Positions 1 through 7,151 of a DNA stretch of 7,151 nt are shown here, in pieces. The stretch is taken from assembly GCA_003818675.1 (NCBI GenBank), contig RPPD01000107.1:1-7151 (forward strand), in the 5' to 3' direction. Within the stretch, counting starts at the first letter, position 1; every line of letters begins with the position of its first letter. Under the pieces are notes generated by a model. That model did no database searches and was not told where the DNA came from. It worked only from the letters and a program-made list of their open reading frames with translations. The position numbers were made by a program, and so were the translations under genes. Source of the DNA: Spirochaetaceae bacterium. Lineage in GTDB: Bacteria; Spirochaetota; Spirochaetia; SZUA-6; RPPD01.

Positions 1-846
1 CATAAATTCAGGATTGTTTATTCCATGATAGAAAACGTGAAATCCGTTGACGAGATCGTTCACCCATCTGTGCGTGAGACCCTGCGATATATGAATATTT
101 CGCAGGGTCTGGAGATTCATCATGATGGTGACATACCGGCCCGTTCGGGCATGGGATCAAGCTCGGCATTTACGGTTGGCCTTCTGAAAATATTGTATGC
201 TCTGAATGGCAGGATCATCTCGAAGAAACAGCTCTATGAGCAAGCAATACACATAGAGCAAACCCTTATCCGGGAAAACGTAGGATCCCAGGATCAGGTT
301 TGGGCTGCATGTGGGGGATTGAATACCATTGAATTCCTGCAAAACGGTGAAATAATCGTGGAACCAATCATAATGCAGGATAGCGCGAGGGGGATGTTTG
401 AAAAAAAATTCATGCTTATATACACAGGATTGGCCAGAAATGCCTCCGATATCGCGTGTGAACAAATCAACAACACGCAAAAGAATAAGGAATTGCTGTG
501 CCGAATGAAGGAGTTCGCGGATGAAGCGCAGGAAATATTGGTATCAAAAAGCGGTGATTTTGTTCAGTTCGGGCGCTTGCTGCATGAAAGCTGGAAATTG
601 AAAAAGTGCCTGTCAAATAAAATCACCAACCCGGAGATAGAAGCCATATATGATGCCGCTGTCAAGAATGGTGCGATAGGCGGGAAAGTACTCGGTGCGG
701 GTGGGGGAGGGTTCATGCTTTTTTATGTGGAACCAGAATACCAGAATAAGGTCAAGGATGCCCTTTCCGACTACCTGCATGTTCCCTTTAAATTCACGTA
801 TACTGGATCAGAGATCATTGTATATAACCCGGATTTTTTCAATTAA
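1..846 (+). CDS. hddA: HddA-type GHMP sugar kinase, 5'-truncated by the window edge
   Basis: GHMP-superfamily kinase resembling D-glycero-D-manno-heptose 7-phosphate kinase (HddA), which phosphorylates heptose 7-phosphate at C1 on the way to GDP-heptose in the cytoplasm. The frame is open from base 1. Eight codons before the ATG at 25 (HKFRIVYS) match the family's KFR..YS..E pattern, and that ATG lacks a well-spaced Shine-Dalgarno site, so the real start lies upstream and roughly 70 N-terminal residues are missing, judging from the usual ~340-350 aa. Numbering from the ATG at 25, the ATP-binding loop PARSGMGSSS is at 38-47. A GSQDQ segment at 88-92 holds the probable catalytic Asp90. The glycine-rich third motif GGKVLGAGGGGF is at 219-230. 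The C-terminus is complete. The following gene starts 32 nt downstream. The exact substrate (heptose phosphate or another hexose phosphate) cannot be fixed from this fragment; kinase identity is firm. Confidence 0.85.
   Translation, partial: HKFRIVYSMIENVKSVDEIVHPSVRETLRYMNISQGLEIHHDGDIPARSGMGSSSAFTVGLLKILYALNGRIISKKQLYEQAIHIEQTLIRENVGSQDQVWAACGGLNTIEFLQNGEIIVEPIIMQDSARGMFEKKFMLIYTGLARNASDIACEQINNTQKNKELLCRMKEFADEAQEILVSKSGDFVQFGRLLHESWKLKKCLSNKITNPEIEAIYDAAVKNGAIGGKVLGAGGGGFMLFYVEPEYQNKVKDALSDYLHVPFKFTYTGSEIIVYNPDFFN
77..110. repeat. Perfect 11-bp inverted repeat inside the kinase gene
   Basis: AGACCCTGCGA at 77-87 is exactly the reverse complement of TCGCAGGGTCT at 100-110, with a 12-nt AT-rich loop between them. 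It would form a strong hairpin in the mRNA. It lies within the coding sequence (residues ~18-29 from the ATG at 25) and is not followed by a T-run, so it is not a typical intrinsic terminator. Function is unknown and it may be a chance arrangement. Confidence 0.6.
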
Positions 847-878: not shown

Positions 879-2039
879 ATGAAGTATGAATTGACCTCCC
901 ATACATGGGGAGATGAAGAGATTGAATCCATACAGGATGTAATAAAGAGCGGCAGATTCACCATGAACGGCAAGGTAAAGGAATTCGAGGAAGAGTTTGC
1001 CCGCCATTTCGGCGTTAAATATGCCGCGATGGTCAATTCTGGTTCTTCCGCGAATTTAATCGCGGTGGCTTCACTTTTTTATAAGAAAGAAAAGCCGCTG
1101 GAGCGCGGCGATGAGGTTATTGTGCCCTGTGTCTCATGGGCGACCACATATCATCCACTGCAGCAATACGGTCTCAAGCTGAAGTTCGTGGATGTGGATC
1201 TGAAAACTCTCAACTTCGACATGGAGGAATTAAGGAAGGCGGTTACACGCAAAACCAAAATGATCGTGGCCGTCAGTATTTTGGGCAATCCGTGCAAATT
1301 TGATGAGATTATTGAAATTTGCGAAAAGAACGGCATTTTACTTTTTGAAGATAACTGCGAATCTATGGGTGCGAGATTCAACGGCAGGTATACTGGCACG
1401 TTTGGTTTTGTGAATACTTTCAGCACGTTTTATTCCCATCATATATCAACCATGGAAGGCGGGCTGGTGCTCACGGACGACAAGGAAATGTACAATTTGT
1501 TCAAGGCTGTACGAAATCATGGCTGGGTGCGTGACCAGGACGAGGACAGCCCCATTTTCAAGCGCCAGGCGGATGATTTTTTTGAGGCCTACAGGTTCAT
1601 TCTTCCAGGCTATAATGTCAGGCCCACAGAAATACAGGGGGCGCTTGGCCTGAAGCAACTTGATAAATTGGACAAGTTCGTTGAAATACGGCGGGAAAAT
1701 GCGCTGCATTTCCGGAAGCTCTTCACCGGTGATGAGCGATTCATCCTGCAGCAGGAGACAGGCGAAAGTTCCTGGTTCTGCTTCACCATGATCCTCAATC
1801 CCGAGGCAAAATTGGACAGGAAGAAGGTGCTCCTGAAGCTCAAGGAAGCCGGGATAGAGCATCGCATAATAACTGGAGGATGTTTTTTGCGGCATGATGT
1901 TATCAAGTATTATGATTATGTCTGTGCAAAGTCAACGAATGCGGACATAGTGCATGATAACGGTTTTTTTGTGGGCAATTTCTCCTATGATATAAAGGAT
2001 AAAATTGAATACCTGCATGAGGTTCTTAAAACAATATAG
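879..2039 (+). CDS. PLP-dependent sugar 3-dehydratase, ColD type (DegT/DnrJ/EryC1/StrS fold)
   Basis: 386-aa member of the DegT/DnrJ/EryC1/StrS sugar aminotransferase fold that probably removes the C3 hydroxyl of a GDP-4-keto-6-deoxy sugar rather than transaminating it. The internal-aldimine lysine is absent: the segment FYSHHISTMEGG (184-195) has His188, matching in sequence and number the His188 base of ColD, the GDP-4-keto-6-deoxymannose 3-dehydratase of colitose synthesis (about 388 aa). PLP-site features remain: NSGSSAN (53-59) for phosphate, Trp87 in SWATT for ring stacking, Asp158 in LFEDNCES for the pyridine nitrogen. The C-terminal HDNGFFVGN segment also fits the family. At 386 aa it is shorter than RfbH/E1 dehydrases, and their Fe-S cysteine cluster is not evident, so it should follow ColD chemistry with PLP/glutamate. 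GAAAGGAG (861-868) precedes the ATG. The actual sugar (hexose or heptose) is inferred only from the neighbours. Confidence 0.88.
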   Translation: MKYELTSHTWGDEEIESIQDVIKSGRFTMNGKVKEFEEEFARHFGVKYAAMVNSGSSANLIAVASLFYKKEKPLERGDEVIVPCVSWATTYHPLQQYGLKLKFVDVDLKTLNFDMEELRKAVTRKTKMIVAVSILGNPCKFDEIIEICEKNGILLFEDNCESMGARFNGRYTGTFGFVNTFSTFYSHHISTMEGGLVLTDDKEMYNLFKAVRNHGWVRDQDEDSPIFKRQADDFFEAYRFILPGYNVRPTEIQGALGLKQLDKLDKFVEIRRENALHFRKLFTGDERFILQQETGESSWFCFTMILNPEAKLDRKKVLLKLKEAGIEHRIITGGCFLRHDVIKYYDYVCAKSTNADIVHDNGFFVGNFSYDIKDKIEYLHEVLKTI

Positions 2040-2043
2040 GATG

Positions 2044-2048
2044 AAGGA
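2044..2048 (+). promoter_or_regulatory. Ribosome binding site that selects the ATG at 2055
   Basis: AAGGA abuts the in-frame ATG at 2049 directly, which leaves no spacer, but sits 6 nt before the next in-frame ATG at 2055. This favours 2055 as the initiator of the SDR gene and gives the conventional short N-terminus MKYNILVTGG. Confidence 0.55.
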
Positions 2049-2054
2049 ATGAGT

Positions 2055-2993
2055 ATGAAATACAATATTTTAGTCACAGGCGGAGCCGGTTATATCGGTT
2101 CCATTCTTGTCCCGGAATTATTGAAACTTGGGCATCAAGTAACCGTATTGGATACTTTTTACTTTAACCAAAATTCCCTGCTGGACTGTTGTCATTATGA
2201 CAATTTCGAGATCGTCAGGGGGGATGCACGAGAAGCCGGCATTCTCAAACCATTGCTGAAGAAAACTGATATCATCATACCTCTGGCAGCATTGGTCGGG
2301 GTCGGACTTTGCAACAAGGACAAAACAGGTGCAGAATCCATTAATAGGGGAGCCATAGCCACCCTGATGGGTTTGCTTGCTGACGGACAGCGCGTCCTGT
2401 TCCCGAATACAAACAGCGGCTATGGTATTGGCAAGGACAATATTTTCTGCACAGAAACAACACCACTAAATCCCATATCATTATATGGAAAAACAAAGAT
2501 GGAAGCGGAAAACCTTATTTTGGAACGCGGCAATTCCATAAGCCTTCGGCTGGCGACTGTATTCGGCGTTTCCCCGCGTATGCGGCTGGATCTCCTGGTC
2601 AACGATTTCACATATCGCGCTGTCAAAGACAGGTATATCATCGTGTTTGAAGGTGATTTCAAACGGAATTACATTCATATAAGGGATGTAGCGCGTGCTT
2701 TTATTCACGGCATTGACAATTTTGAGACTATGAAAAATCAAGCCTATAATCTCGGATTATCCAGCGCAAATCTGTCCAAGCTCGAATTGTGCGCAAAAAT
2801 CAAGGAGCAGGTTCCGGATTTTGTTTTTATGGAATCCGATGTGGGGGAAGATCCAGATAGACGCAACTACATTGTTTCCAACGATAAAATAGAGAACACC
2901 GGTTATAAACCTCTCGTGTCCCTGGAAATGGGAATACAGGAATTGATAAAAGCTTATCGAATTATCTCCAACAACAAATACGCCAATGTATGA
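2055..2993 (+). CDS. Extended SDR: NAD-dependent sugar epimerase/ketoreductase
   Basis: Extended short-chain dehydrogenase/reductase of the NAD-dependent epimerase/dehydratase family, 312 aa from the ATG at 2055 (314 aa from the ATG at 2049). Residue positions use the 2055 start. The Rossmann motif TGGAGYIG is at 8-15, and Asp33 at the end of beta-2 (VLD) favours NAD(H). The catalytic set is Thr119 in NTNSGYG plus Tyr144 and Lys148 in YGKTK. The Asp-Glu pair that follows the catalytic Thr in 4,6-dehydratases (TDEVYG in RmlB) is replaced by Asn-Ser, so 4,6-dehydration is unlikely and epimerisation or ketone reduction is more plausible. NYIHIRDVARA (205-215) is the usual nucleotide-sugar-binding region. 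It lies between a ColD-type dehydratase and a split transketolase, so it may reduce a keto group made by one of them. The exact substrate is not recognisable. Confidence 0.85.
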   Translation: MKYNILVTGGAGYIGSILVPELLKLGHQVTVLDTFYFNQNSLLDCCHYDNFEIVRGDAREAGILKPLLKKTDIIIPLAALVGVGLCNKDKTGAESINRGAIATLMGLLADGQRVLFPNTNSGYGIGKDNIFCTETTPLNPISLYGKTKMEAENLILERGNSISLRLATVFGVSPRMRLDLLVNDFTYRAVKDRYIIVFEGDFKRNYIHIRDVARAFIHGIDNFETMKNQAYNLGLSSANLSKLELCAKIKEQVPDFVFMESDVGEDPDRRNYIVSNDKIENTGYKPLVSLEMGIQELIKAYRIISNNKYANV

Positions 2994-3844
2994 AAGGGGG
3001 AGCTGTGGGCGATGACTGGATCGGCAACAAAGCTGAATACCTTCTGGAAAAAGTCCGGTTCGTCAGGGAACAAACCCTGGAGATCCACAGGATAGCACAA
3101 GGCACGCGAATCGCCTCGTCGCTTTCCTGCATCGAGGTCCTGGTGGCTCTGTATTACGGCGGCATCCTGAACTTTAATGCCAGCAATCCGCGTTGGGAAA
3201 AACGGGACAGGTTTATTGTCAGCAAGGTCCATGGTTCGATCGCTTTGTATCCCATATTGGCTGATCTTGGATTTTTCCCCGCTGAACAGCTTGGCCATGT
3301 CGCTTCCCGGGGGTCCATACTGGGAGCAATACCGGACTGCATCATTCCAGGATATGAGACAACAAACGGTTCGCTCGGACATGGGCTGGGCGTGGCGTGC
3401 GGAATGGCGACAGCCTTGCAGTGCAGGAAGGCGGAAGAAAAAGTCTTTGTAATGGCTGGGGATGGTGAATTGTTTGAAGGCGCTGTTTGGGAAGCCATTA
3501 TGTTTGCCGGCGAACATTGTCTCGGCAATCTGATCCTGGTGGTAGATGCGAACAAGGTCAGTATGCTGGATTATTGCAGAAACATTATCGATCTGGAGCC
3601 CTATTCCGCAAAGTTCCAGGCGTTCAAATGGGAGGCCCATTGCGTAAACGGGCATAACCTTGAGGATGTGTACAAATTGATGTTTCGGCTCAAGCATGAG
3701 GAATCCCGTTTCCCGCGGGTTGTCATCGCGAATACCATCAAGGGCAAGGGAATACCCGCACTCGAGAATGATTCGCTCTGCCATATCAAAAACGTTCCGC
3801 CGGAACAGATAGGGGAGATCATCCGAAATTGGAGGAAAGAGTAA
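2990..3844 (+). CDS. Split transketolase, N-terminal (TPP pyrophosphate-binding) subunit
   Basis: 284-aa N-terminal half of a two-subunit transketolase, which binds the thiamine diphosphate pyrophosphate and Mg2+. The TPP motif GDGE is at 157-160, paired with Asn188 (VDAN) about 28 residues on. ETTNGSLGHGLG (123-134), SKVHGS (78-83, His81) and His265 near the C-terminus match family positions. By-eye comparison shows two active-site histidines of classical enzymes replaced: Arg40 in TRIASSLS where GHxGxSLS is usual, and Ile114 in LGAIPD where QGHPD is usual. The ATG overlaps the previous stop (ATGA) but has no upstream Shine-Dalgarno. AAAGGGGGAG at 2993-3002 lies inside and could serve an in-frame GTG at 3005 (279 aa), so the start is uncertain. 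The gene is followed 5 nt later by the C-terminal subunit, and the two presumably form a heterodimer or heterotetramer. Confidence 0.88.
   Translation: MKGGAVGDDWIGNKAEYLLEKVRFVREQTLEIHRIAQGTRIASSLSCIEVLVALYYGGILNFNASNPRWEKRDRFIVSKVHGSIALYPILADLGFFPAEQLGHVASRGSILGAIPDCIIPGYETTNGSLGHGLGVACGMATALQCRKAEEKVFVMAGDGELFEGAVWEAIMFAGEHCLGNLILVVDANKVSMLDYCRNIIDLEPYSAKFQAFKWEAHCVNGHNLEDVYKLMFRLKHEESRFPRVVIANTIKGKGIPALENDSLCHIKNVPPEQIGEIIRNWRKE
2993..3002 (+). promoter_or_regulatory. Purine-rich Shine-Dalgarno-like tract within the start region of the transketolase N-subunit
   Basis: AAAGGGGGAG begins at the last base of the preceding stop codon and lies downstream of the overlapping ATG at 2990. It sits 2 nt (from GGAG) to 7 nt (from AAAGG) before the in-frame GTG at 3005, which could be the real initiator. 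Confidence 0.4.
3831..3839 (+). promoter_or_regulatory. Ribosome binding site for the transketolase C-subunit
   Basis: GGAGGAAAG lies in the end of the N-subunit gene. It lies just inside a possible TTG start at 3829, so it cannot serve that codon, and precedes the ATG at 3850 with a long spacer (14 nt from GGAGG). This supports 3850 over 3829 and implies translational coupling of the two subunits. Confidence 0.5.
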
Positions 3845-3849
3845 GCATA

Positions 3850-4809
3850 ATGACAAAGACCATGCGCGACGGTTTCCTTGAGGCATTATATGCAAAAATG
3901 CAATATAACCGGGATATTTTTCTTGTTTCGGCCGACTTTGGGGCGCCTAAACTGGATGATATAAAAAGCCATTTTTCTGACCGTTTCATTAATGTTGGCA
4001 TAGCGGAACAGAATTTGATCAACATCTCCATGGGTTTGGCCCTGGAGGGATTCACGGTTTATACCTACGCCATTGCTCCATTTCTGACTATGAGGGCCTA
4101 TGAACAGATCAGGGTTAACCTTTCGCTTCATGCGCAAGTGAAGGAACTAAACGTCAATCTGGTTGGTGTCGGTGCCGGCATCAGTTATGATGTGACCGGT
4201 CCAACCCACCATTGCCTGGAAGACCTGAGCATTATGCGCGTATTGCCGCATTTTACTGTTATTTCCCCCAGTGACTGGAAACTGGCGGAGGCGTGCGTCG
4301 ACTACACACTGACTGAAAAAAAACCGAAGTATCTGCGTTTCGACGCCAAGCCACTGCCCCAGATTTATCCCAATGCGGCTCCAGGGGCTTTCAGTGACGG
4401 GTTTATCGAGATCGCAAGGGCAGATTGTGTTTGTTTCGTAACCACAGGATTCATGACTCATAAGGCCCTGGGCGTAATTGAAAAATTGAAGCAAGAGGGG
4501 TTGTCTGTGGGCATCGTGGACGTGGTTTTATTGAAGCCTGTTCACGGGGAAAAACTGTATGATTCTCTCAAACATTACGAACACATCATCACTTTGGAAG
4601 AGGGATTTGTGGGCAAGGGCGGCCTGGATTGCCTCATCGACAATCTCTATAACTCAAGAGGCTCCAGAACAGAATTGACACATTTGGGTTTCCCTGACCG
4701 CTACACATTTGAAATGGGCAGCAGGGAAGAACTTTATGCGCTCAACGGGCTTGATGACGAGAGCATCATTTCCCTGACAAAAAGAATATTTGATAAACGG
4801 GGGAGATGA
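3850..4809 (+). CDS. Split transketolase, C-terminal (pyrimidine-binding) subunit
   Basis: 319-aa partner subunit with the TPP pyrimidine-binding domain and the C-terminal transketolase domain. The catalytic Glu that protonates the aminopyrimidine is Glu53 in NVGIAEQN. MRAYEQIRV (81-89), GPTHH (117-121, His120) and YLRFD (161-165, Arg163) align with conserved family segments. Compared by eye with E. coli TktA, the phosphate-contacting His461 position is Gly108 (GAGIS where THAGI is common). The Ser385 region (STKT-like in other split enzymes) reads KLDD (34-37). The TPP machinery is therefore intact while the phospho-sugar pocket looks altered. I chose the ATG at 3850 because a longer reading from TTG at 3829 would place the Shine-Dalgarno inside the gene. 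It follows the N-subunit by 5 nt. Pyruvate dehydrogenase E1-beta or DXS are less likely given the N-subunit's transketolase signatures. Confidence 0.87.
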   Translation: MTKTMRDGFLEALYAKMQYNRDIFLVSADFGAPKLDDIKSHFSDRFINVGIAEQNLINISMGLALEGFTVYTYAIAPFLTMRAYEQIRVNLSLHAQVKELNVNLVGVGAGISYDVTGPTHHCLEDLSIMRVLPHFTVISPSDWKLAEACVDYTLTEKKPKYLRFDAKPLPQIYPNAAPGAFSDGFIEIARADCVCFVTTGFMTHKALGVIEKLKQEGLSVGIVDVVLLKPVHGEKLYDSLKHYEHIITLEEGFVGKGGLDCLIDNLYNSRGSRTELTHLGFPDRYTFEMGSREELYALNGLDDESIISLTKRIFDKRGR

Positions 4810-4815
4810 AAGGTA

Positions 4816-6288
4816 ATGAACCGTAAAACAGATATAGTTTTCATAAATCCGGGTGACCGAAGGCAGGTCTTCCAGAATCTGGGCGATGATATCGCCGCAA
4901 TCGAACCTCCCTTCTGGATTGTCGTTCTCGCTGCGTTTCTCCGGAAGAATCATTACAATGTGCAGATAATCGATTCCAATGCCCTGAATATCACACCTGA
5001 GGAAACGGCCATGCGTGTCGCGGATCTTGATCCCAAATTGGCGGCTGTTATCGTGTATGGGTCTCAACCTTCAGCTTCCACGCAGAATATGACCATAGCC
5101 GGGAAAATCTGCCAGGCCATACGCAATGCGACCAATTGCAAGATCGCCATGGGTGGTCTGCACCCGTCCGCACTCCCCGAACAAACCTTACGGGAAGAAG
5201 CCGTTGACTTTGTGATCAAAGGTGAGGGGCATGAAACACTGCGTCGGTTATTGGAAGAGATCAGTGCTTCAAAACCGTCTTATTCCTCCATCCCCGGCCT
5301 CTGGTATTTTGAGGAAGGCAGGGTCATGAGCCTGCCGCAGGAACCTGTCAGAAACAATCTGGATGATATTTTGCCTATCGGGGCCTGGGACCTGTTGCCA
5401 ATGGAAAAATACAGGGCCCATAACTGGCATTGTTTCCAAAACATCCAGGCCCGACAGCCTTATGCCGCGATCTATACGAGTCTTGGCTGCCCGTATTCCT
5501 GTGTCTTTTGCTGCATAAACGCTCCCTTTGGCAAGCCGGGAATCCGGTACAGGAGCCCGGACATTGTATTGGAAGAAATCGGCCTGCTCGTGCGGAATTA
5601 TAATGTGAAAAACCTGAAGATCATCGATGAATTGTTTGTATTGCACGAAAAACATTATATGGAAATCCTGGATCGCATTGTCGAACAGGGCTATGACCTG
5701 AACATGTGGGCATATGCCCGGGTCGATACGGTAAAGCCGGAAAACCTGCCTCTTTTAAAAAAGGCCGGGGTCAATTGGCTGGCTTTGGGAATCGAATCCG
5801 CCAATCCCGATGTCAGGGACGGAGCATCCAAAAAAATGCGTGTCAAAGACATCCAGCAGGTGGTCGGGATGATCCGGGATGCGGGAATTAATGTGATAGG
5901 GAATTACATCTTCGGCCTGCCGGACGACACTTTGGAGACAATGCAGGAAACATTGGACCTGGCCATGGAACTCAATTGCGAATTCGCAAATTTTTACTGC
6001 GCCATGGCATATCCAGGTTCGCAATTGTATGGAATCGCCCTGGAAAACAAATGGCCGCTGCCCTCGCAATGGCATGGTTTTTCCCAGCATTCCTATGAGA
6101 TTGTTCCCCTGCCGACCAAGCATTTGACGCCAAAGGAGGTCCTTTGTTTCCGTGACGAGGCCTTTCATTCCTATTTTGAAAATCCTGTTTACCTCGATAT
6201 GGTTGCACAAAAATTCAGCCCAGATGTGAAGGGGCATATGGGCCGGATCACGAAAACGCGGCTGCGGAGAAAACTCCTCGAAAGTTGA
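4816..6288 (+). CDS. Cobalamin-binding-domain radical SAM enzyme
   Basis: 490-aa protein with the architecture of class B (B12-dependent) radical SAM enzymes. The N-terminal ~30-150 residues form a Rossmann-like cobalamin-binding domain, with PPFWIVVLAAFLR (31-43), MGGLHPSALPE (112-122) and VIKGEGHETL (133-142) as typical landmarks. The radical SAM core carries the 4Fe-4S motif CxxxCxxC at Cys225, Cys229 and Cys232 (LGCPYSCVFC). Further core landmarks are WAYARVDTV (near 298-306), a GIES segment near 327 and a GNYIFGLPDD loop. The C-terminal ~90 residues resemble the usual tail. Many relatives transfer methyl groups to unactivated carbon; others do epimerisations or ring rearrangements, so the reaction cannot be named. 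Among deoxysugar enzymes, C-methylation or carbon-skeleton editing of the sugar is plausible. It should need cobalamin and low oxygen. GGGGGAG (4799-4805) lies 10 nt before the ATG. Confidence 0.88.
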   Translation: MNRKTDIVFINPGDRRQVFQNLGDDIAAIEPPFWIVVLAAFLRKNHYNVQIIDSNALNITPEETAMRVADLDPKLAAVIVYGSQPSASTQNMTIAGKICQAIRNATNCKIAMGGLHPSALPEQTLREEAVDFVIKGEGHETLRRLLEEISASKPSYSSIPGLWYFEEGRVMSLPQEPVRNNLDDILPIGAWDLLPMEKYRAHNWHCFQNIQARQPYAAIYTSLGCPYSCVFCCINAPFGKPGIRYRSPDIVLEEIGLLVRNYNVKNLKIIDELFVLHEKHYMEILDRIVEQGYDLNMWAYARVDTVKPENLPLLKKAGVNWLALGIESANPDVRDGASKKMRVKDIQQVVGMIRDAGINVIGNYIFGLPDDTLETMQETLDLAMELNCEFANFYCAMAYPGSQLYGIALENKWPLPSQWHGFSQHSYEIVPLPTKHLTPKEVLCFRDEAFHSYFENPVYLDMVAQKFSPDVKGHMGRITKTRLRRKLLES

Positions 6289-6309: not shown

Positions 6310-7151
6310 ATGCGCAAAAACGCGAAAATATATATTGCAGGACACAAGGGCATGGTCGGAACAGCCATTGTCCGCAAGCTGCAGGATTTGGGCTACGATA
6401 ACATCCTGACGCGTTCGAAACAGGAACTGGATTTGCGCGATCAGAATGCGGTAAACCGGTTTTTCAGTGACGAACAGCCGGAATACGTGTTTTTGGCGGC
6501 TGCGCGCGTCGGCGGCATTATGGCAAATTCCACCTATGGTGCGGATTTCATCTATGATAACCTGGCGATCACAATGAATGTCATAAAGGCTTCTTTTGCG
6601 GGCGGAGTTAAGAAATTGCTCAATTTCGGTTCTTCCTGCATGTATCCCAGGCTCGCGCCCCAACCCATGAAGGAGGAATACCTTCTCACGGGTCCCGTGG
6701 AGCCCACAAGTGAACCATATGCGATCGCAAAAATATCTGCCACCAAGCTTTGCAGATATTTCAATGAGCAACACGGTACTAATTTCATATCGGTTTTGCC
6801 CACAAACCTGTATGGGCCAAATGACAATTTCGACCTCAGCGTCTCCCACGTTATGCCAGCGCTGATCAGGAAGCTTCTTGACGCGAAAAAAGCAAATGCA
6901 CCTCACATTACTAATTGGGGAGACGGCAGTCCAAAACGGGAGTTCATGTATATCGATGACCTTGCAGATGCCGTCATTTTCCTGATGGAACGATTTGATT
7001 ACAAGGATATCGGTGAGGTAGTGAATGTCGGGACCGGGGACGAGGTTGCGATCCGGGATTTGGTAGAATTGATAGCCGAGATTGTCGGGTATAGGGGTGA
7101 ACTGCAATGGGACTTTGCCAAACCCAATGGCGCGCCGAGAAAATTGCTCGA
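6310..7151 (+). CDS. fcl: GDP-L-fucose synthase (GMER)-type epimerase/reductase, 3'-truncated by the window edge
   Basis: 280 codons of an extended SDR of the GDP-4-keto-6-deoxymannose 3,5-epimerase/4-reductase family (Fcl/WcaG), open to the last base. The usual length is about 310-320 aa, so only the C-terminal end is missing. AGHKGMVG (10-17) is the nucleotide-binding motif. The catalytic triad is Ser108 or Ser109, Tyr137 and Lys141 (YAIAK). Both epimerisation acid/base residues known in E. coli GMER (Cys109, His179) are present as Cys110 in SSCMYP and His180 in SHVMPAL. It should therefore be a full epimerase/reductase, not a reductase-only variant. NLYGPNDNFD and EFMYIDDLADA fit the family. 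The substrate is a GDP-4-keto-6-deoxy sugar: hexose, giving GDP-L-fucose or colitose-like sugars, or heptose as in Campylobacter capsule pathways if HddA here makes heptose. No gmd-like dehydratase is in view. Confidence 0.9.
   Translation, partial: MRKNAKIYIAGHKGMVGTAIVRKLQDLGYDNILTRSKQELDLRDQNAVNRFFSDEQPEYVFLAAARVGGIMANSTYGADFIYDNLAITMNVIKASFAGGVKKLLNFGSSCMYPRLAPQPMKEEYLLTGPVEPTSEPYAIAKISATKLCRYFNEQHGTNFISVLPTNLYGPNDNFDLSVSHVMPALIRKLLDAKKANAPHITNWGDGSPKREFMYIDDLADAVIFLMERFDYKDIGEVVNVGTGDEVAIRDLVELIAEIVGYRGELQWDFAKPNGAPRKLL

Follow-up and report, generated by a model that had tools for sequence, protein, structure and literature searches.

The window analysed here, a stretch of 7,151 nt from contig RPPD01000107.1 of a Spirochaetaceae bacterium (assembly GCA_003818675.1), contains a split transketolase-like gene pair among genes for nucleotide-sugar conversion. 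It is cut at both ends, with the loss of the 5' end of the HddA-like gene and the 3' end of the Fcl-like gene. Seven reading frames lie on the + strand, in the order HddA-like kinase, ColD-like 3-dehydratase, extended short-chain dehydrogenase/reductase (SDR), transketolase N-terminal half, transketolase C-terminal half, B12-binding radical SAM protein, and GDP-fucose-synthase-like protein, and their successive junctions measure 32, 9, -4, 5, 6, and 21 bases. The gene kinds were concordant across Pfam, NCBIfam, and PDB comparisons:

1..846, +, HddA-like D-glycero-D-manno-heptose phosphate kinase (GHMP), 5' end cut; PF00288 and PF08544, PDB 3k85
879..2039, +, predicted ColD-type pyridoxamine-phosphate-dependent sugar 3-dehydratase; 2gms/ColD 4.7e-131, His at the place of the pyridoxal phosphate (PLP) lysine
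2049..2993, +, Cj1427-like SDR, predicted GDP-heptose C4-dehydrogenase; 6vo6 1e-112, 379 bits
2990..3844, +, split transketolase-fold carboligase (putative), N-terminal half (PP domain), H26R, H100I; PF00456, 6yak_AAA 4.7e-46
3850..4809, +, C-terminal half of the split carboligase (Pyr and C domains), S385P, H461G, D469T, R520A; PF02779, PF02780, 6yaj 4.1e-32
4816..6288, +, B12-binding radical SAM protein; PF02310 and PF04055, nearest solved relative AprD4
6310..7149, +, GDP-L-fucose-synthase-like epimerase/reductase, 3' end cut; E. coli GMER 1bws 1.2e-90

An earlier note on this DNA described the dehydratase, the SDR, and both transketolase halves as contiguous and coupled, which the frames, the junctions, and the Pfam and PDB matches confirm. 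The interval it marked (879..4809) holds four real genes in their proper place but omits the radical-SAM and Fcl-like members, and the unit is at least seven genes, including these two. Building on the observed gene kinds, gene order, conservation, and active-site residues, we consider it somewhat probable that the window belongs to an operon whose product is a GDP-linked 3-deoxy-heptose with a two-carbon branch, made through a GDP-3-deoxy-4-C-acetyl-heptose pathway.

Predicted formation of the keto-sugar acceptor

The HddA-like protein, which is truncated, found its best NCBIfam match in HddA (NF049969, 136 bits, under the cut-off of 600) and its best PDB match in 3k85, a heptose kinase (9e-36). 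The ColD-like frame has a DegT fold, its top PDB match is ColD (2gms, E 4.7e-131), and the PLP lysine is replaced by His (FYSHHISTMEGG). By fold and by this His, it is predicted to be a ColD-type 3-dehydratase, which would carry out the 3-deoxygenation of a GDP-4-keto sugar.

The best PDB match of the SDR was 6vo6 (379 bits, 1e-112), followed by a match of 77 bits. The entry itself is named 'putative sugar-nucleotide epimerase/dehydratase', and we take it to be Cj1427, which oxidises GDP-heptose to its C4 ketone. Judged by this relative, the SDR of the window most likely makes the same ketone. The earlier note had assigned to it the reduction of the branch, which we rejected as unsupported: by the match to 6vo6 (379 vs 77 bits), an enzyme that forms the 4-ketone, the SDR is probably not a branch reductase. 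According to section 19 of PMC10680097, Cj1427 forms GDP-4-keto-heptose with 2-oxoglutarate, and section 24 describes that Cj1427 and the Campylobacter jejuni C3-dehydratase together give GDP-3-deoxy-4-keto-heptose in vitro. The gene kinds for the 4-dehydrogenase and the 3-dehydratase adjoin in the window, and both enzyme kinds act on GDP-heptose in the C. jejuni modification system (Cj1427 and the HS:5 C3-dehydratase), as sections of that paper describe. The C. jejuni system differs from the window in that the word transketolase has 0 occurrences in that paper and no branching step is among its enzymes (PMC10680097 section 21).

If the SDR supplies the ketone, as is most likely, a 4,6-dehydratase would be dispensable and the C6 hydroxyl would stay in place, so that the sugar would be 3-deoxy and not 3,6-dideoxy. 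Pfam and NCBIfam revealed no hexose 4,6-dehydratase among the genes of the window, which is cut at both ends. A gene for L-2-hydroxyglutarate oxidase (lhgO), which would recycle the by-product of the SDR, was found in the cluster at two related loci, L006 (324.6 bits, cut-off 299) and L174 (327.7 bits); it bears indirectly on a Cj1427-type ping-pong with tightly bound NADH and 2-oxoglutarate.

Site residues and conservation of the split pair

PF00456 was located on 2990-3844, and PF02779 and PF02780 on the next frame, which starts mechanically at TTG 3829, although ATG 3850 behind GGAGGAAAGAG is likelier. Among solved structures, the halves come closest to the two chains of the split transketolase from Carboxydothermus. 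The N-terminal half scored 103 bits with Transketolase_N and 24 bits with E1_dh, and it was not classed as an E1_dh-type alpha chain. In E. coli TktA numbering, the pair keeps H66, G114, D155, H261, R358, E411, and H473, and so carries the thiamine diphosphate (ThDP) and catalytic residues of transketolase (EC 2.2.1.1). The substrate site is changed relative to the E. coli enzyme at six positions (H26R, H100I, S385P, H461G, D469T, and R520A), of which S385, H461, and R520 presumably bind phosphate. We call the pair a fold relative of transketolase and do not claim it as a transketolase by activity. Since these residues are changed and at least one further transketolase-like match was found in 11 of 11 genomes searched, it is probably neither a housekeeping nor a normal transketolase. 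A pair acting solely on xylulose 5-phosphate and ribose 5-phosphate, the case that the earlier note had named as speaking against its proposal, is unlikely on the same evidence. The ColD-type 3-deoxygenation beside a ThDP carboligase predicted to act on an activated keto-sugar, as the note proposed, is supported.

Loci with Ile at position 100 form a clade. Wherever the alignment covers these columns, its members carry R26 and I100; position 385 is Pro apart from one Ser, 461 is Gly, 469 is S/T/A/V, and 520 is G/A/S, and H66, G114, H261, E411, and H473 are retained. A tree of 96 rows gathers this clade into a single group (support 99) and shows about five losses of His-100. We compared 60 Ile-100 loci, all of which have Ile at 100 by clade definition, with 60 His-100 split transketolase loci. 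Both sets were found by likeness to the window N-terminal half and are not a random sample. A gene was counted as present when tblastn passed set identity and 45%-coverage thresholds. Short copies (L095-L133, L175-L189), repeats (L140, L166, L190), and E. coli yardsticks were excluded before counting, while the look-alikes L085/L086 and L089/L090 (same coordinates) and L143/L167 (one genome) were not merged. With the N-terminal half as query, matches at 1e-90 or better occurred in 13/395, 14/384, 7/395, and 4/392 genomes of four phyla, in samples centred on metagenome-assembled genomes (MAGs) titled Magnetobacteriaceae, Omnitrophota, Deltaproteobacteria, and Scalindua.

The radical-SAM gene accompanies the pair in 50 of the 60 Ile-100 loci, together with a His-type DegT gene in 46, HddA in 45, SDR in 43, HddC in 38, and Fcl in 34; rarer genes are LhgO (11/60, by a looser tblastn rule), rmlB (2), and a Lys-only DegT (1), and gmd was found in none. 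The corresponding counts at the 60 His-100 loci are DegT-His 9, SDR 8, radical SAM 6, HddA 4, HddC 2, gmd 2, rmlB 1, and Fcl 0. Among loci of at least 15 kb, the Ile-100 set (n=36) has SDR 31, HddA 30, radical SAM 30, DegT-His 28, HddC 27, Fcl 22, and LhgO 9, and the His-100 set (n=39) has SDR 7, HddA 3, radical SAM 5, DegT-His 7, and HddC 2. Between the two sets of 60, the co-occurrence of the gene kinds is more than chance. The genome search suggested in the earlier note thus joins the pair to the SDR (43/60) and to a His-type 3-dehydratase (46/60), and the heptose start that it raised as a possibility, hence a product of nine carbons, gains support from HddA (45/60) and HddC (38/60). The linked gmd-like 4,6-dehydratase that it asked for was present in 0/60 related loci; with no 4,6-dehydratase in the window either, the proposed 3,6-dideoxy sugar did not hold.

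A frequent order is HddC-HddA-ColD-SDR-(Fcl)-TKN-TKC-rSAM, where TKN and TKC are the transketolase halves and rSAM the radical-SAM gene (e.g. L136, L158, and L163), and gmhA or gmhB was found in a few related loci. Orthologues of the window ColD-like enzyme in several related loci are 70-74% identical to it, and many DegT-family neighbours are just 28-36% like it. These divergent relatives also carry His; all four that were scanned match RfbH best, and the one of them compared with PDB gave ColD as its best match. Our first view of the 3-dehydratase as optional, based on a 45% identity threshold, was dropped because the divergent DegT relatives have His too.

Other residues also occur at position 100. 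The nine Tyr-100 loci have DegT-His in 8, SDR in 6, HddA in 6, and radical SAM in 6. Two gut MAGs (L020, L021) encode a Leu-100 split transketolase with gmd, a His-type 3-dehydratase, and two Fcl genes, likely a hexose version, that is, a GDP-hexose analogue of yersiniose synthesis. The split transketolases of L045, L053, and L073 show another change of the donor site, Glu at 100, and none of the sought sugar genes lies nearby. Loci L081-L084, catalogued as viral in IMG/VR, have the Ile-100 pair with radical-SAM, His-type DegT, HddA, or Fcl neighbours; a search of viral contigs with the SDR as query gave no match. The transketolase N-terminal half of L149 (G580:C8) contains one in-frame TAA. 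A NUDIX hydrolase gene, perhaps for a GDP-sugar hydrolase or a phosphatase stand-in, lies beside or near the HddA-like kinase at L092, L171, L172, L174, and L198.

E1-type substitutes and the probable donor

On plasmid pDMC1 of Solidesulfovibrio magneticus RS-1 (L174), genes for E1 alpha and E1 beta chains of the pyruvate dehydrogenase type take the place of the pair, in the order radical SAM, NUDIX, kinase, E1 alpha, E1 beta, Fcl, DegT (His), SDR, and nucleotidyltransferase, with lhgO and a GmhA-like SIS protein further on in the cluster. None of the 27 listed features of this locus is named E2 or E3. A second sample was drawn with the radical-SAM protein instead of the pair (14/398 Pseudomonadota genomes). 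In this sample the carboligase is the transketolase pair in 10 (L035, a locus identical with L190, is one of these), a fused E1 alpha-beta protein at L194, and a weak E1-type match at L203 (31.6% over 174 and 24.8% over 165 residues). No carboligase is visible at the radical-SAM loci L198 and L200, at L171 and L172, or at L204, a second radical-SAM copy in one sampled genome. According to section 2.2 of PMC12247030, free E1-type pairs transfer acetyl from pyruvate to ketosugars in the aldgamycin pathway, and the E1-type enzyme of kibdelomycin transfers acetyl from pyruvate in vitro with ketones. The interchange of the pair with E1-type proteins is the best evidence for acetyl addition by the pair.

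The residues of the donor site point in the same direction. As described in part of PMC7661550, H66, H100, G114, and H473 are donor residues of transketolase, 1-deoxy-D-xylulose 5-phosphate (DXP) synthase has Phe at the H100 position, H100F and H100L raised pyruvate use in a transketolase, and an ordinary split transketolase did not accept pyruvate. Pyruvate is the likely donor of the window pair, and an acetyl branch is likelier than a glycoloyl one, given the lost His100 and sugar-phosphate site and the E1-type stand-ins.

The glycoloyl branch had been the proposal of the earlier note. In that case hydroxypyruvate or a ketose would be the donor of a hydroxyacetyl unit, which the pair would place on the C4 ketone; the branch would be 4-C-glycoloyl, or dihydroxyethyl once reduced. 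The transketolase fold, the retained H66, G114, H261, and H473, the ten related loci with the same neighbours that keep His100, and the proposal of hydroxyacetyl addition by split transketolases for miharamycin and amipurimycin (PMC12247030 section 2.3) agree with it. However, Ile replaces the donor-binding His100 in the window and in 60/60 clade loci (by clade definition), and E1-type proteins replace the pair, which makes this outcome improbable.

It is most improbable that the pair is an ordinary transketolase supplying sedoheptulose-7-phosphate, the GDP-heptose precursor. The presumed phosphate site S385, H461, and R520 reads P, G, and A, positions H26, H100, and D469 are changed as well, and E1-type replacements are incapable of making sedoheptulose-7-phosphate; we rejected such a local supply on the residue changes and the other transketolase-like match in 11/11 genomes. 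What recommends it is the strong linkage to HddA and HddC, the presence of gmhA or gmhB in a few loci, and a pathway that begins with sedoheptulose-7-phosphate, as described in part of PMC10680097.

Several known systems resemble the window. Yersiniose A synthesis (YerE, YerF), as presented in part of PMC12247030, likewise combines 3-deoxygenation with a ThDP-dependent step that puts a two-carbon unit on a nucleotide sugar at its C4 ketone. YerE, however, belongs to the decarboxylase superfamily and acts on a CDP-hexose, whereas the window carboligase is of transketolase type; the window also has a heptose kinase, a C4-dehydrogenase replacing the 4,6-dehydratase, and a radical-SAM partner. By Pfam, no YerE-like carboligase of the decarboxylase superfamily is present in the window, where the sole carboligase is transketolase-type. 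The E1-type (alpha-KADH2) pairs of aldgamycin, kibdelomycin, and avilamycin are similar in their two-chain ThDP-dependent C2 addition to a ketosugar, and differ in family, since the window pair resembles E1 chains only weakly (E 7e-4 and 3e-5). The split transketolases of miharamycin and amipurimycin are also proposed to branch a keto-sugar, but they are Streptomycetes enzymes to which hydroxyacetyl transfer is ascribed (PMC12247030 section 2.3). The same section lists 13 proposed ketone-accepting transketolases, all from Streptomycetes and none characterised in vitro.

Predicted products and their significance

In the favoured pathway, the Cj1427-like SDR would oxidise C4 of GDP-heptose with 2-oxoglutarate as hydride acceptor, and the ColD-like enzyme would take off O3 to give GDP-3-deoxy-4-keto-heptose. 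The split pair would then decarboxylate pyruvate and add acetyl to the C4 ketone, giving GDP-3-deoxy-4-C-acetyl-heptose, with nine carbons and a tertiary alcohol. The Fcl-like enzyme may epimerise C5 and/or reduce a ketone, and the B12-radical-SAM enzyme may further change the branch or the side chain.

The Fcl-like protein, cut by the window, retains S107, C109, Y136, K140, and H179, the catalytic residues and epimerase dyad of GMER (dyad C109/H179, Table 4 of PMC7949155). It scored 404.8 bits with NF047922, under the cut-off of 500, and matched E. coli GMER (1bws) at 1.2e-90. At L012 (9014-10804, +), a single 596-residue open frame spans the Fcl-like and transketolase N-half matches, a possible natural fusion tying the two steps together.

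Colitose synthesis pairs ColD with a GMER-like enzyme. The operon might serve two products: ColD and the Fcl-like enzyme would make a GDP-3-deoxy-L-heptose resembling colitose, and the pair and the radical-SAM protein would act on another sugar. The kept dyad and the presence of Fcl in 34/60 loci fit this division. Yet the pair, the SDR, the radical-SAM gene, and the His-type 3-dehydratase stand together in most loci, and the L012 frame spans Fcl-like and N-half matches, leaving two products decidedly improbable.

Several points weigh against the acetyl-heptose pathway. Every substrate and product in it, including the GDP and heptose specificity, is one that we infer, and the reductase role of the Fcl-like enzyme is unexplained if C4 bears the branch. 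The HddA match lies far under its NCBI cut-off, the HddC of L006 is slightly under its own (260 vs 300), and the L174 E1 alpha and E1 beta score 278 bits (cut-off 394) and 291 bits (cut-off 321). Sampling relied on similarity to genes of the window itself. Ten loci that keep His100 (L019, L085-L092, and L173) have an SDR, HddA, or radical-SAM neighbour, so the genomic setting does not require the loss of His100, and the donors at these loci, and in the window, may be hydroxypyruvate or ketoses. When loss of His100 was tested against linkage on the tree, only three pairs lay on supported branches, and the result was not significant.

The radical-SAM protein scored 77.6 bits with the AprD4 NCBI family (cut-off 500) and 160.9 with HpnJ, the cyclitol-ether radical SAM protein (cut-off 577.6), and was assigned to neither. 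The HpnJ match is generic, because scores of 98-157 were obtained for three further radical-SAM proteins from these loci, and it was dropped as evidence. HpnJ and BchE were not seen in the fold comparison, which we counted as no evidence; the structure model used 34 sequences (predicted local distance difference test, pLDDT, 86), and an earlier model from 6 sequences (pLDDT 61) was left unused. A divergent, widespread branch of radical-SAM proteins is represented by L203:8993-10534 (-), whose listed named near relatives are Piscinibacter, Rubrivivax, and other Burkholderiales.

The product predicted above resembles caryose, a carbocyclic sugar of Pseudomonas caryophylli (now Trinickia) lipopolysaccharide, in its nine carbons and 3-deoxy position, as well as in the methyl C9 and the C-C bond at C4. 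GDP-3-deoxy-4-C-acetyl-heptose and GDP-caryose are computed to be isomers, with the sugar formula C9H16O7, and because of this isomerism the radical-SAM enzyme could close the carbocycle. That the operon makes a caryose-type carbocyclic nonose is unlikely but can be set out in steps: C4 would be oxidised by the SDR, C3 deoxygenated by ColD, C5 epimerised by the Fcl-like enzyme, and acetyl from pyruvate added to C4 by the pair, after which a 5-exo radical cyclisation, redox-neutral and catalysed by the B12-radical-SAM enzyme, would bond C7 with C8, the carbonyl carbon of the branch. A passage of PMC9026286 describes caryose as a 4,8-cyclo-3,9-dideoxy-nonose. Our literature search found no paper on caryose biosynthesis, and the genes for bradyrhizose are given as unknown in part of PMC4743980. 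The caryose producer was not named among 120 listed of 5710 radical-SAM relatives passing, which says little.

Instead of ring closure, the radical-SAM step may be an AprD4-kind 1,2-diol dehydration of the C6-C7 diol or a B12-dependent C-methylation, a proposition that we hold about evenly balanced. AprD4 is the nearest solved relative; the 77.6 bits against a family cut-off of 500 argue against the AprD4 kind, and a common fold shows no function.

The clade combines a recognisable change of the donor site with genes for a defined acceptor that has in vitro precedent. Its enzymes offer a way to assay directly a candidate new route to C2-branched heptoses, and the locus brings the origin of caryose within reach of testing. 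If the caryose-type pathway were true, it would be the first route to this sugar and would imply bicyclic sugars in many uncultured bacteria.

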